Assembly: GCA_021821085.1 (NCBI GenBank)
Contig: JAKACV010000006.1
Span: 1 to 64,000, forward strand
Origin: Bacillota bacterium
Lineage (GTDB): Bacteria; Bacillota; Bacilli; Alicyclobacillales; SLC66
Direction of reading: 5' to 3'
Length of the DNA stretch: 64,000 bases
The position numbers and the translations under genes were made by a program. A model generated the notes under the pieces. The model worked only from the letters and a program-made list of their open reading frames with translations, ran no database searches and was not told the DNA's origin. This document shows positions 3,221-44,095 of this stretch, piece by piece (the first letter of the stretch is position 1; each line of letters begins with the position of its first letter).

Positions 3221-4063
3221 ATGCGATTGTCCGATGCATCCAACCGATATCTGACCCTCCGCGCGCAGGAGGGGTACTCGCCCTATACAGTAAAGGCCTA
3301 CCGGGTGCAGCATCGCCTGTTGATAAAAGACATCGGGGACGTCGAGATCGACACTGTCACCTTGGAACAACTGCGGGAACATCTGCAGCAGCACATGCAT
3401 TTGAAAGCGAGCAGTCTCGGGCACAAGGTACGAGCCATAAAAAGTCTCTTCAAGTGGTTGGTGGAAGAGGATCTCCTTGTACGCAATCCGACCATGAAGT
3501 TGAAGGAACCGAAGCTTGGAAAACGTGTGCCAAAGGCACTCACCATCGATGAACTAGAAATGCTGCGGGATTCCTGCACCAGTGTCTTGGAGCATGCGCT
3601 TGTGGAATTCTTCTTCGCCACGGGATGTCGGGTGGGGGAGATTCACAAACTCGACCGCAGTGCAATTGATTGGCAGCGCGGCTGTGTGAATGTGATAGGG
3701 AAAGGAAACAAAGAACGAGAGGTGTACTTCGGCTCGAAGGCTCGCATATGGCTACAGCGGTATCTGAATCATCGTGGAGATAAGGATGCGGCGCTGTTTG
3801 TGACCGAGCGGAATCCTCACCGGATGTCAATTCATCAGATTGAGTACATTTTCAATCGGATCGCGAATCGCTGCGAGTTACAGGCAAAAGTTTCACCCCA
3901 CAAAATGAGACATACGCTCGCAACGGTGTTGCTCAATCAGGGCGCACCCCTCGTTGCCGTGCAGTCTATTTTGGGACATGAGAAACCGGAGACCACGCAG
4001 TTGTACGCATCCCTTAGTGGCACCGTCCGCCAGCAAGCGTATCAGCGATATTTCGTGCAGTGA
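3221..4063 (+). CDS. Tyrosine recombinase (phage-integrase/Xer-like)
   Basis: A 280-residue site-specific recombinase with an N-terminal SAM-like core-binding domain (about 1-95) and a C-terminal catalytic domain. The catalytic set is complete: R137 (GCRVGE), K161 (GKGNKERE), H227 and R230 (SPHKMRHT), H253 (LGHEKPE) and Y262 (TTQLYA). Start ATG 3221 follows GGAAGGAGA. It stands alone after the pilus terminator and is GC-rich like its upstream neighbours. It differs from the xerD at 33.9 kb and probably belongs to the accessory region; which element it mobilises is not evident. Confidence 0.85.
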   Translation: MRLSDASNRYLTLRAQEGYSPYTVKAYRVQHRLLIKDIGDVEIDTVTLEQLREHLQQHMHLKASSLGHKVRAIKSLFKWLVEEDLLVRNPTMKLKEPKLGKRVPKALTIDELEMLRDSCTSVLEHALVEFFFATGCRVGEIHKLDRSAIDWQRGCVNVIGKGNKEREVYFGSKARIWLQRYLNHRGDKDAALFVTERNPHRMSIHQIEYIFNRIANRCELQAKVSPHKMRHTLATVLLNQGAPLVAVQSILGHEKPETTQLYASLSGTVRQQAYQRYFVQ

Positions 4064-4244
4064 TGAATGTCTGCAAAACCAATCGTCGCCGTGTATACTG
4101 GGGGAAAGGATGCTAGGAGCGCGAAGAAGAACTGGCATCGAGCCATCCGCACACGGCGACTTTATGCAGAAAAATTGCATGATTATGCGAAACAAGCGAA
4201 TTGACTTCTGCCGATTTCGGGCAGAAGAGTATAAGAACTGGACG

Positions 4245-4670
4245 GTGAAACCATCGGTTAATTACAAGATTGTGGAACGGGCACCAACACCAGATGAATA
4301 TCGTAATCTTTGCGTTTCTGTGGGTTGGGAATCTGTCATGAATTTTGATGTAGCCCCAAAAGCCATCGAGAATTCATTATACGCCGTTGTAGCAGTGCAG
4401 GACGAGCAAACTGTAGGCATGGGTCGGATTGTCGGAGATGGTGCGATAGTTTACTACGTCCAGGATATTGCTGTATCACCAAAGTACCAAAAACGTGGTA
4501 TTGGGACAAAAATCTTAGACACGTTGATGGAGTATATAAAGACTCATGCTCCAGAGAAAGCGTTTATTGGTTTGTTTGCGGCAGAGGGAACTGTGCCTTT
4601 TTATGAGCAGTATGGATTTAAAGATTATTCACCGTCGATGACAGGAATCTTTCGTGTAACGCCAATCTGA
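4245..4670 (+). CDS. GNAT-family N-acetyltransferase
   Basis: About 141 residues. The acetyl-CoA-binding motif A is clear (DIAVSPKYQKRGIGTKIL, the R/Q-x-x-G-x-G/A loop), as is the C-terminal motif FYEQYGF. The substrate cannot be deduced. GTG 4245 gives the usual N terminus (KPSVNYKIVERAPTPDEY) but has a weak ribosome site; ATG 4185 in the same frame is the alternative. Base composition (about 43% GC) is lower than the recombinase upstream, so this gene and the next ones look like separately acquired DNA. Confidence 0.75.
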   Translation: MKPSVNYKIVERAPTPDEYRNLCVSVGWESVMNFDVAPKAIENSLYAVVAVQDEQTVGMGRIVGDGAIVYYVQDIAVSPKYQKRGIGTKILDTLMEYIKTHAPEKAFIGLFAAEGTVPFYEQYGFKDYSPSMTGIFRVTPI

Positions 4671-4700
4671 CACAAAGACTTATCTTGTTGCACATAAGGG

Positions 4701-5464
4701 TTGCGACATGTAAGTTGTCGATAATCATATGGTGAAAACCCATCCGGTCAGAACTGCGACCGCGAGCCTACCGTGACGTGGGATGGTGGTAACGCTGTCT
4801 TGCGAAAGCTCACGGGACAATGTAGCCGCGTCCGATAGGGTGATTCGGGCAGGAGCTAGGTTGCAGATGCATGGTGAACAACAGTGAACCCCATATAAAC
4901 CGCGTCACGCAAAGCAAGCGAAACACCCTGTTACGCTTGAGCCAAAAGGCAAGTAGCCGGAATGAGCACTCCCGTTTTGCTGATTCGCAGTTCCGAAGGC
5001 TATCGCGGGAGTCGGGGCACCTAAACATCTGATTATGGGGTTATCGGCGAAACATGGTAAGCCCCATGGGGTCTGTTTGAATGAACAGTAAGCGGATTGC
5101 GAGTGAAGCAGAACTCCCTAGGGGGTAGAAGAGTGGACAAAAAGCGAATGCCACCCTGTAATCGGGCGGATAGGGACGGTGGCAAGACCACCTATGTCCT
5201 AACGCGAAAGCGTGCAGACTTGTCCGAGGTGACCGAACTGGAAATCTCGTAGCACGAGACGAATGGAATAACCTGTTATGAACCAATTATCCGTCCTAGA
5301 GACGAGTCAACAGGTTACACTCGAAAGAGGGTACTAGAAATCGCATACCACGTCTACGGGTTATCGAGGCTACTAGCGAGGTGGCTTGAGCCGTGTGACA
5401 CGGAAACGGTCACGCACGGTTCTTAGGGGGCAAGGGCACCGCGAGGTGCCTAAGCTACCCGGTA
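4701..5464 (+). ncRNA. Group II intron RNA without an encoded protein
   Basis: Domain V is unmistakable at 5388-5422: GAGCCGTG / CACGGTTC basal helix, AGC catalytic triad, two-base CG bulge on the 3' side, TGAC/GTCA upper helix and a GAAA tetraloop. Domain VI follows at about 5426-5460 (GGCACC/GGTGCC hairpin, then CTACCC). About 690 bases of structured, GC-alternating sequence with no credible ORF precede domain V, the size expected for domains I-IV. The 5' end is set near TTGCGAC (4701), similar to the GUGYG consensus, and the 3' end near 5460-5466; both ends are approximate. No maturase/reverse-transcriptase gene is present, so splicing or mobility would need a protein supplied in trans. 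Confidence 0.8.
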
Positions 5465-5628
5465 GCTTGTGTCCCGGTGTGAAACGCGCACGGATTCTGC
5501 ATGCAAATACAGTGTTCAAGTTGAGCGTTTTATGGGGCAATCGGGCAGAATAACCGAACAGTGAGTACTAAAATACGGTCAGATTATAGTTGAGTTGAGA
5601 CAGAAGAGACGAGAAAGGTGAGACTAAT

Positions 5629-6429
5629 GTGAAAGACGCACCAAAGTACAATGAGATAGGTAAGACATACAACTCATTTCGCAAAGCTGACCCCAGAATA
5701 GTACAGTCGCTACAGGATTTTTTGGAACTGCCCTCGGGCTCAACGATAGCAGACATCGGTTCAGGGACAGGAAACTACAGTGCCGCCTTGGCAAACATAG
5801 GCTTCAATGTACTTGCTATCGAACCATCAGAAGTGATGAGAAATCAAGCAGTAAAACATGAAAATGTACAATGGTTTGAAGGAATTGCTGAGAATATCCC
5901 GTTAGATACATCATCGGTCGATGGTGTAATTTGTACTTTGGCGACACACCATTTCACTGACTTACAAAAAGCATTTTCGGAAATGTCCCGCATCCTGAAA
6001 AAGGGTGGGAAGAATGTTCTCTTTATCTCCGACCCAAGACAGTGTTCACCAGAAAATTGTTGGTTAATGCATTATTTTAAGCTGATATTTGAGCAATCGT
6101 ATCAGGTGTACAAACCGCTTGATGAGATTACACGATTGTTGACAGTTGCATTTGGAACAGATCCACACGTTCATCCATTCTTGCTTCCACCTGATACTCA
6201 AGACGGCTTTTTTATTTCGGCTTGGAAGCATCCCAGACGTTATCTAGACCCTGTTTTTCAAGCAGGTGTATCTCCATTGGCAAAGGCACCGAAGACCGTC
6301 ATCAAACCTATCTTACAAAAACTACAGTCGGATTTGGATTCAGGTCATTGGCAAGAGATGTTCCCCAATGTAGCCACAAGTGCTGAATATGAAGGCGGGT
6401 ACAGGTTCGTAGTTAGCACAAAGTCGTGA
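5629..6429 (+). CDS. Class I SAM-dependent methyltransferase (UbiE-like)
   Basis: 266 residues with the SAM-binding motif I (IADIGSGTGNYS, about residues 40-52), motif II acidic end (LAIEPSE), and motif IV/post-I (VDGVICTLATHHFTD). Typical of the Methyltransf_11/25 families acting on small molecules; the acceptor is unknown. GTG start at 5629 with AGAAAGGTGAG upstream. It lies downstream of the group II intron in the low-GC accessory patch, and nothing nearby indicates a pathway. Confidence 0.75.
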   Translation: MKDAPKYNEIGKTYNSFRKADPRIVQSLQDFLELPSGSTIADIGSGTGNYSAALANIGFNVLAIEPSEVMRNQAVKHENVQWFEGIAENIPLDTSSVDGVICTLATHHFTDLQKAFSEMSRILKKGGKNVLFISDPRQCSPENCWLMHYFKLIFEQSYQVYKPLDEITRLLTVAFGTDPHVHPFLLPPDTQDGFFISAWKHPRRYLDPVFQAGVSPLAKAPKTVIKPILQKLQSDLDSGHWQEMFPNVATSAEYEGGYRFVVSTKS

Positions 6430-6647
6430 CATCAAATAAATGCCTCCGCTGTTGGACAAACGGGTGCTGGTCTCGAAAAAGGATTTGCTCCCTCCCGTTC
6501 ATGCATAAATATCTACTGAGGAATTTTCTGGGTTCTGTCGTTATCGGGGCAGGTAACCGCAAGAAGACTTTGTAAATCACAGACCAGGAATTATATGGAT
6601 TATAGTCGAATTTTGAGTACAAGTAACTATGAAGGGGATACGTCAAA

Positions 6648-7108: not shown

Positions 7109-8602
7109 TTACCGAAATTGGACACGAACATCAATGCCATCGGGGCCTCGCGTATAGTCAATGCGTTCAATCAGCAGTTTCGCGAGTCGATTTCTCTCCT
7201 TGACCTCGATACGTTCTTTCCACGCGGATTTGAACGCCTCGAACCTTTGCACCCGCAGTGCGCGCGTCGGTTCGGTGCATCCATCAAGGTTATCGCGTAG
7301 TTGATAGATTTCGTTCTCCTTCTTCACAATCAGGGTCCTCAAACGCTCCAGTCGTGTGGTGTAGTCTTGTTTGGAGAGATCGCCCATCACGAACAGGTCC
7401 TGCAACCGGTTCACCCCTTCTCTCAGGCGTTCGAGTTCAGCCTCCTTCATTTGTAACAGACGTTCCGATACTAGAACGGGTTCCTCGGCATCCGCTGGCA
7501 TCTGGAGGAGTTCCGTTTCATATTGCCGCATACTTTCGAACACGGCGGTTTCTACAGGCTCGAGTTCGATGCCCGGATTGCCGCAGATGATTCCGTCGTT
7601 GCCTGGTCTTTGGCACTTCTTGACGAGGGTTCTGCCGTTTTCTTTCGGCTGAAACTTCAGCGAGGAACCGCACCGGCCACAATGGAGGAGACCGGAGAGA
7701 AAGTAGGTTCCATGCCTTGAATGTTTGGGCTGAACGCGACGCCCTTCCAAGAGGTTGATGATCTGCAGATGTTCTGCCGGTGTCTTCACGGCAGGGTGTG
7801 CGTTTTCGACGATGATCCAATTTTCTCTGGGGATCACTTTGAAGGGCGCGGTCTGACGCTTTTTATGCAGTCCACCGTTGGTTTTGCCGTACACCACGCG
7901 GCCCAAGTGAACTTCGTTGATGATGAGGCGATACAGTACACTGTCGGACCAGCGTGCTCCTTTTGGAGAGGGGACAGTGCGGCGGTTGAGCTCTGCGCAG
8001 ACCGCGCTGCAGGTTTCACCGCTTAAAATTTGATCTTTGATAAAACGATAGGTTTGGAGCTTTGCAGGGTCAACCTGCAGGCTGTGGACGTCCGCGTTGT
8101 ATACGTAGGGAAATGGGGCCGGACCGTTCGTCCAGTGGCCAAGGCGAGCGCCAATCTTCTTGCCGCGCTGGAACCGCTTTTTGATCATCCGGTACTCATA
8201 CCTGGCGAACACGCCTTCGATGTCCGTCATAAGTTCCTGGTCCTCGTCGTTCAAGTCATAGACACGTATCGGCGTGACCACGACCGTGTGGGAGCGCTTG
8301 AGAATTTTCTCGATCCGTGCGCGGTCCTCCTTGTCGCCCCGGCTGAGGCGGTCATAGTCGATTACGACGACCGCATCGTAGAAGTCGTTTTCGACGTCGC
8401 TGAGCAGGCGTTTGAATTCGGGTCGGAATTCAATGCTGTCGGAACTGCCGATTTCCCGGTAGATCACATAGCGCCAAGTGTTTTGGCGAGCGAGATCGGT
8501 GAGGGCGGTTTCGTGTTTGAGCAAAACGTCTTCCTCGCCGTCCGAATCATCGCGACTCTTGCGCAGATAGATGGCCACTTCGTAGATTTTCTTGGGCTCC
8601 AT
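7109..8602 (-). CDS. Large serine recombinase (resolvase + recombinase + zinc-ribbon)
   Basis: 497 residues in the order of large serine integrases. The resolvase domain (about 8-150) has the nucleophile Ser in YLRKSRDD and the DYDRLSRGD motif. The Recombinase domain (about 170-270) follows, then the zinc ribbon (GLLHCGRCGSSLKF ... CQRPGNDGIICGN, about 305-350) and a C-terminal coiled coil (about 375-450). ATG start with GAGGTGATACAGTC upstream on the minus strand. Such enzymes integrate and excise phages and islands. It is GC-rich (about 55%), unlike the chromosome right of 9.6 kb, so it is probably the integrase of the left-hand island. It is related to, but clearly distinct from, the recombinase at 59.7 kb. 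Confidence 0.9.
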   Translation of the reverse strand: MEPKKIYEVAIYLRKSRDDSDGEEDVLLKHETALTDLARQNTWRYVIYREIGSSDSIEFRPEFKRLLSDVENDFYDAVVVIDYDRLSRGDKEDRARIEKILKRSHTVVVTPIRVYDLNDEDQELMTDIEGVFARYEYRMIKKRFQRGKKIGARLGHWTNGPAPFPYVYNADVHSLQVDPAKLQTYRFIKDQILSGETCSAVCAELNRRTVPSPKGARWSDSVLYRLIINEVHLGRVVYGKTNGGLHKKRQTAPFKVIPRENWIIVENAHPAVKTPAEHLQIINLLEGRRVQPKHSRHGTYFLSGLLHCGRCGSSLKFQPKENGRTLVKKCQRPGNDGIICGNPGIELEPVETAVFESMRQYETELLQMPADAEEPVLVSERLLQMKEAELERLREGVNRLQDLFVMGDLSKQDYTTRLERLRTLIVKKENEIYQLRDNLDGCTEPTRALRVQRFEAFKSAWKERIEVKERNRLAKLLIERIDYTRGPDGIDVRVQFR

Positions 8603-43923: not shown

Positions 43924-44056
43924 ATCTTCCTTCAGGGCAGGGTGAGGAGTATTCCAATTCCCGACCGGTGGTAACGCTATGCGAAGTCCACGAGCCTCAC
44001 GGCATGAACTGGTGAAAATCCAGTACCGACGGTACAGTCCGGATGAAAGAAGGAAT
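43924..44056 (+). ncRNA. FMN riboswitch (RFN element)
   Basis: Closely follows the RFN consensus: CTTCCTTC and GAAGGAA close P1. Between them are AGGGCAGGGTGA, ATTCCCGACCGGTGGTA, AGTCCACGAGCC, CTGGTGAAAATCCAG and CCGACGGTACAGTCCGGATGAAAG. It binds FMN and controls the riboflavin synthesis operon immediately downstream. Confidence 0.96.
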
Positions 44057-44095
44057 GGGAGTCATGTGCAATATCACATGCTCTCTTTCGTGTTG

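Follow-up and report, generated by a model that had tools for sequence, protein, structure and literature searches.

A group II intron without its own protein gene at a gene-cassette junction of a Bacillota bacterium

In a window of 64,000 nucleotides from a Bacillota bacterium (order Alicyclobacillales), positions 4701-5463 of the + strand hold a group II intron that is full-length but has no gene for an intron-encoded protein (IEP). We consider it probable that this is a naturally ORF-less group IIB intron (CL/IIB1-type), which goes back to one loss of the IEP and spread into gene-cassette junctions by means of the IEP of its relatives. The ORF-less family is hosted by acid-loving spore-forming bacteria, the Alicyclobacillaceae.

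Anatomy of the intron

4701..5463, + strand: ORF-less group II intron, domains I to VI (Rfam RF02012 and RF00029; six-homologue fold; flank comparison)
about 4701-5056, + strand: domain I (folded consensus)
4971..4977, + strand: EBS1, CCCGTTT, in a domain I loop; pairs with IBS1 at 5 of 7 positions
5061-5126, + strand: domain II (folded consensus)
5134-5226, + strand: domain III (folded consensus)
5227-5387, + strand: domain IV (folded consensus)
5278..5328, + strand: IEP start codon and first codons, a remnant in domain IV with the frame shifted by one base
5388-5422, + strand: domain V (Rfam; folded consensus)
5426-5460, + strand: domain VI (Rfam; folded consensus)

The first-pass annotation, made from the letters of the window, had described an ORF-less group II intron with complete domains V and VI preceded by structured RNA, and had proposed a covariance-model search as a check. 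An Rfam scan of the whole window at the gathering threshold returned both group II models above their curated cut-offs: RF02012 (group-II-D1D4-7) scores 50.8 bits at 4744-4856 (E 1.4e-7, cut-off 34), and RF00029, the model of domains V-VI, scores 50.9 bits at 5386-5463 (E 4.6e-7, cut-off 40). The two matches lie on the same strand in the expected order, which rules out a chance match as the origin of the call and confirms that the intron is real. As had been claimed, it encodes no IEP: the + strand inside the intron has no ORF of at least 70 aa, and two ORFs run on the - strand (4810-5028 and 5041-5286). It also lies between genes, outside any ORF, 30 bases past the end of a GNAT acetyltransferase ORF (4670) and 165 bases ahead of the start of a methyltransferase ORF (5629).

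The ends were set by comparing the flanks of copies. The best supported are T4701 and T5463, i.e., 763 nt reading 5'-UUGCG...GGU-3'; the start proposed at first is thus retained while the end, placed at 5464, moves in by one base. These ends are preferred because EBS1 then pairs through the final exon base, and because those of the intron UHB.I2 are given as UUGCG..GU in the accessible text of its description (PMC7923331). Alternatively, G4700 may be the first intron base (GUUGCG...GGU). Neither version carries the 5'-GUGYG...AY-3' ends of group II, a departure that UHB.I2 is reported to share (PMC7923331) and which is no bar to membership since ends vary within the class.

The anatomy was established by an RNAalifold consensus of six ORF-less homologues, whose domain coordinates were transferred to the window by hand. 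The consensus comprises domains I-VI in canonical order with 232 pairs, 29 of which show among the six copies at least one double change that preserves pairing; the structured RNA upstream of domain V is therefore borne out, including a fold with domains I-III. The catalytic triad AGC can be read directly within GAGCC of domain V, and the branch point is likely the A at 5457 of domain VI, as predicted from the Rfam consensus. Domain V with its triad, domain VI with a bulged A and the ordered domains I-VI are together those of a group II intron.

Within this fold the window copy has 10 non-standard pairs, the five others having 3, 7, 11, 4 and 5, and its domain V is the only one whose upper stem has an additional base when compared with five aligned homologues. 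Both features speak for a relic, in other words a copy from a once mobile family that has ceased to splice and to move and survives by chance as a fossil. However, the pair count falls between the extremes of 3 and 11 (of 232) seen in the other copies, and all six domains are present. We regard the relic reading as possible but somewhat doubtful; further evidence on both sides comes from the relatives of the intron.

The ORF-less family and its helpers

A 23-base domain I pattern picked out 12 stretches in the genome collection. Mapping the intron and one IEP onto these stretches and onto further loci sorted two kinds of intron, 7 ORF-less copies in 6 genomes and 9 IEP-bearing relatives:

ORF-less copies: the window; Alicyclobacillus fastidiosus plasmid and chromosome; A. 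dauci plasmid; Alicyclobacillus sp. ALC3; A. ferrooxydans; MAG Bu12
IEP-bearing copies: L039, L040, L041, L042 and L073 (two copies); broken, L065, L069 and L075

Related introns with and without an IEP thus exist in other genomes. A. ferrooxydans and A. fastidiosus each carry both kinds, the IEP of the latter being broken in the available sequence. The Bu12 sequence reaches about base 685 of the query, short of domain V. When the count begins at the G ahead of TTGCG, the six other ORF-less copies are 760-765 bases long; in pairs they are 81.3-93.7 % identical. The window copy shares 83.7-86.3 % identity with its homologues and has no large deletions, which argues against a relic. Over 97 % of the query, the annotated plasmids of A. 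fastidiosus and A. dauci are colinear with it (85.8 % and 84.2 % identity), and neither has an annotated feature beneath the intron. The remaining 39 plasmid records match less than 80 % of the query, the 18 listed among them in domains V-VI only. Among phages the sole match was one of 52 bases to domain V, and the lineage pattern was absent from viral contigs.

A tree of 634 columns from domains I-III separates the seven ORF-less rows from the nine IEP-bearing ones with a branch support of 98/99, in agreement with 98 % of bootstrap trees; the tree is rooted arbitrarily, and several of the IEP rows are incomplete. The fragments L043-L048 were excluded, and rows were dropped for L072 (a 27-base match in Chryseobacterium) and for L068, L074 and L076 (the same DNA as L041, L013 and L042). 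All seven ORF-less copies retain the beginning of the IEP gene in domain IV. The start codon, TTG in Bu12, is followed after 23 or 24 bases by codons for DE(S/P)TG...RK, which also occurs in the L039 and L040 IEPs. The remnant frame is intact in four of the seven and lost in three, including the window copy, a loss that also fits a relic. The tree and the shared 5' remnant establish the lineage and the loss of its ORF; their simplest reading would be a single deletion with subsequent spread.

ORF-less introns mobilised in trans have already been published for T. elongatus, which has 17 of them with one common deletion of about 1.5 kb, mobilised by several IEPs, some of which act on several introns (PMC2882425). 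The present lineage resembles the TeI3 (ORF-less) and TeI4 (IEP-bearing) introns described there, of class CL/IIB1, in its single domain IV deletion, its ORF remnants (one shared deletion, by the tree and the 5' remnant) and its IEP-bearing relatives. In contrast, TeI3/TeI4 belong to one genome and their mobility was measured (PMC2882425), whereas the present, putatively mobile family occupies at least 6 genomes and cassette junctions.

L041 encodes an IEP of 627 aa that passes TIGR04416. In a comparison with proteins of solved structure, the nearest to the relatives' IEP is 6me0_C (E 1.1e-114; next 1.6e-40), which we take to be the T. elongatus TeI4h maturase. Class IIC, considered on account of the insertion site, was rejected on the same comparison (E 1e-114 to 6me0_C versus 6e-29 to the GsI-IIC protein).

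The window's own genome yielded no close IEP and no second copy of the intron, so that this copy could be stranded or dead; the missing IEP likewise favours a relic. The assembly is 97.5 % complete in 107 contigs, and a collapsed repeat could therefore be missing from it. Seven domain V matches were found there, four above the cut-off, and the three besides the window's own are unlike it. Other group II introns of this genome, none of them close, lie at G000:C23:1-1957, C103:56-126, C72:56-126 and C103:4839-4935, some being cut by contig ends. The first-pass annotation had left open whether the intron is a relic or a member of a family served by another copy. Membership fits best for the lineage, given the tree and the remnants, while the full-length relative with the same domain V that it suggested looking for in the genome was not found in close form among the contigs; its interpretation is on the whole supported.

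The sole RVT_1 region of the genome, on contig C23, is about 37 % identical to the L041 IEP and raises the question of a distant helper at home. RF02012 matches the C23 intron as well, which codes for RVT_1 and maturase domains, and the IEPs of T. elongatus that serve several introns offer a precedent (PMC2882425). However, the C23 gene is split over two frames and extends past the contig end. Domain I of its intron aligns with that of the window in patches of 62-70 % only, whereas the T. elongatus introns, at 85-100 % identity among themselves (PMC2882425), are far closer. Service by the C23 protein therefore appears rather improbable, and we return to an IEP of the close relatives as the preferred source of help.

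Cassette junctions as the insertion site

3221..4063, + strand: XerC-like tyrosine recombinase, 280 aa (PF00589)
4064..4224, + strand: recombinase-linked conserved stretch ending TTTCGGGCAG; gene content changes there between genomes
4245..4670, + strand: GNAT acetyltransferase gene, first cassette (PF13673; 90 % identical DNA in L058 without the intron)
4684..4700, + strand: 5' exon, the cassette-junction 5' box CTTGTTGCACATAAGGG with IBS1 (ATAAGGG, 4694-4700); score reached by 2.7e-5 of background positions
5464..5548, + strand: rest of the cassette junction, ending CAATCGGGCAG (profile R1 match 5463-5552, 45.3 bits; training sequence)
5629..6429, + strand: methyltransferase gene, second cassette (PF08241)
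6447..6552, + strand: second junction of the window, without intron (profile R1, 59.9 bits; training sequence)

The intergenic position given by the first-pass annotation holds, but the cassette junction at the insertion site had been missed. The insertion marks the 5' edge of a junction, about 105 bases long, which recurs along arrays of genes on one strand; a XerC-like recombinase is close by. Its layout runs from a 5' box AACGGG.GC through the palindrome-like TGTATnATTATACA to a 3' box ATCGGGCAG. An empty counterpart of the site is found in genome G004 (L058), where the GNAT gene is 90 % identical and the DNA is colinear with the window up to base 4700; at that point the intron is absent, and a stretch to GATCGGGCAG leads to the next gene. 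This ending recurs at 5548 and 6552 of the window and beside other intron copies. A search for empty sites with the right flank returned the window itself only.

The insertion motif is established by the upstream flanks. The 17 bases ahead of the intron match the 5' box of the junctions, and 11 of the 12 copies starting with GTTGYGAC have a box score seen at fewer than 1 in 10,000 of 487,298 background positions, the L040 flank being identical to a training box; the twelfth, from A. dauci, scores 2.7e-3. Stray pattern matches (L013 on the - strand, L067 on the +) were left out of the 12, and L046, a GTGCGAC-type copy scored outside them, does not match the box. In ten copies, between 4 and 7 of the 7 EBS1 positions pair with the exon, random 7-mers averaging 2.7. 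EBS1 shows no preference for its own exon over those of the others (6215 of 50000 permutations), which counts against our preferred reading; in A. dauci the odd flank is met by a changed EBS1 that pairs at 6 of 7, which counts for it.

Since a strict DNA pattern had proved too strict for the junction (one place in 18 genomes, unlike a junction), it was replaced by profile R1, a sequence-only profile built from eight junction stretches. R1 sites number 43 in genome G001 and 19 in G004, and one or more sites reach E 0.01 or better in 16 of the 18 family genomes, which alone made up the search; the E-values are approximate, and many of the single hits score weakly. In 13 stretches examined, the sites lie on one strand within each, mostly 0.6-5 kb apart. 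Arrays lie at 3221-6552 of the window and, in G001, on contigs C13, C20, C23, C25, C26, C36 and C40 (L135-L143); among the arrays as a whole, some have a XerC-like recombinase beside them.

On the downstream side, R1 recovers the remaining part of the junction in three training sequences, namely the window, L040 (as L141) and L042 (as L144), and also beside G001 intron fragments. Among the six complete ORF-less insertions a full junction follows only that of the window: R1 has no match directly after the other five (L013, L014, L066, L067 and L070), a further point against our preferred reading. At 3496-3587 of L042 (G004:C86), two introns appear to have recombined, the domain V-VI end of the first being joined directly to mid-domain I of the second. 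G001 has four 5' intron fragments that break off near query position 276, a little short of EBS1, with a junction immediately following each of them:

L140:8142-8417
L139:13017-13267
L136:1220-1481
G001:C23:19669-19926

These fragments, and the presence of copies at junctions in the junction's own orientation, would agree with an intron retained as a working part of the cassette system (e.g., as promoter, insulator or recombination aid). This seems very improbable: G001 has 43 junction sites against seven intron matches, most junctions being intron-free, and the window's genome has one copy only. Use of the junctions as a target for insertion is the reading we retain.

The arrays have one feature of integrons, i.e., genes on the same strand with repeated putative recombination sites between them. 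A true integron was nevertheless rejected on both defining tests: no integrase exceeded the TIGR02249 cut-off in any of the 18 family genomes, and an attC-like fold gave no consensus pair over 71 aligned junction sites. The XerC-like recombinase of the window scores 207.9 bits with TIGR02224, below its cut-off, and 84.1 bits with the integron integrase model TIGR02249 (cut-off 265). The stretch behind it (4064-4224) is conserved in G003, in two places of G004 and, for its last part, in G012, with three other gene contents after it. A close copy of the recombinase occurs in five of the 18 genomes. However, G001 is without one despite its 43 sites, which counts against a simple pairing of recombinase and array. 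Two further elements of the window were seen on the way, a large serine recombinase at 7109-8602 (- strand; nearest NCBIfam model XisF, below cut-off), also found right of the cassettes in G004 (L058:8724-10217), and an FMN riboswitch at 43924-44058 (Rfam, 98.2 bits).

A CL1/IIB1 intron beside an integron attC site has already been published: UHB.I2, from a hypersaline gene-cassette array, lies just after attC and shares with the window intron its UUGCG start, its GU end and the cassette orientation (PMC7923331, accessible text). By this comparison of descriptions, UHB.I2 differs in carrying an IEP and in being a single case beside canonical attC sites, the accessible text mentioning no ORF-less form. 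Group IIC-attC introns also target gene-cassette recombination sites, but they are of another class and are usually inserted into the bottom strand of attC, in the orientation opposite to that of the cassettes (PMC7923331), whereas the present intron is on the cassette strand at a junction without a conserved hairpin.

Proposed history and meaning

Splicing, help in trans and retrohoming, as we infer them, would have proceeded as follows. An ancestor with an IEP in domain IV would have lost most of the gene once. The shortened intron would then have spread through the Alicyclobacillaceae by EBS-IBS pairing with the junction 5' box, using the IEP of related IEP-bearing introns for splicing and for copying into DNA, and here would have entered the junction between the GNAT and the methyltransferase cassette. 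Since the insertion is outside any reading frame, the intron could be excised from the array transcript or retained in it at little cost. The loss of its own enzyme gene, its ORF-less family and its site at a cassette junction make it probable that a relative's enzyme moved it there. The helper may be absent from this genome, and this copy would then be immobile.

A wider proposal, which we offer tentatively and think rather less than even in its chances, is that the Alicyclobacillaceae have a cassette-capture system of their own, integron-like in its working yet distinct from integrons, with a XerC-like recombinase, two-box junctions without attC hairpins and long same-strand arrays, and that an ORF-less IIB lineage has specialised on its junctions, travelling between species on borrowed maturases. 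Searches of the open-licence literature brought up neither this intron family nor these arrays. The intron also marks the cassette-junction site and in this way brought to light a large number of Alicyclobacillaceae gene arrays, each on one strand, that lack the two defining integron features looked for, integrase and attC hairpin. Introns that depend on the protein of other introns are an often proposed step toward spliceosomal introns. If the reading given here is true, such an intron has persisted across several species, beyond one genome.
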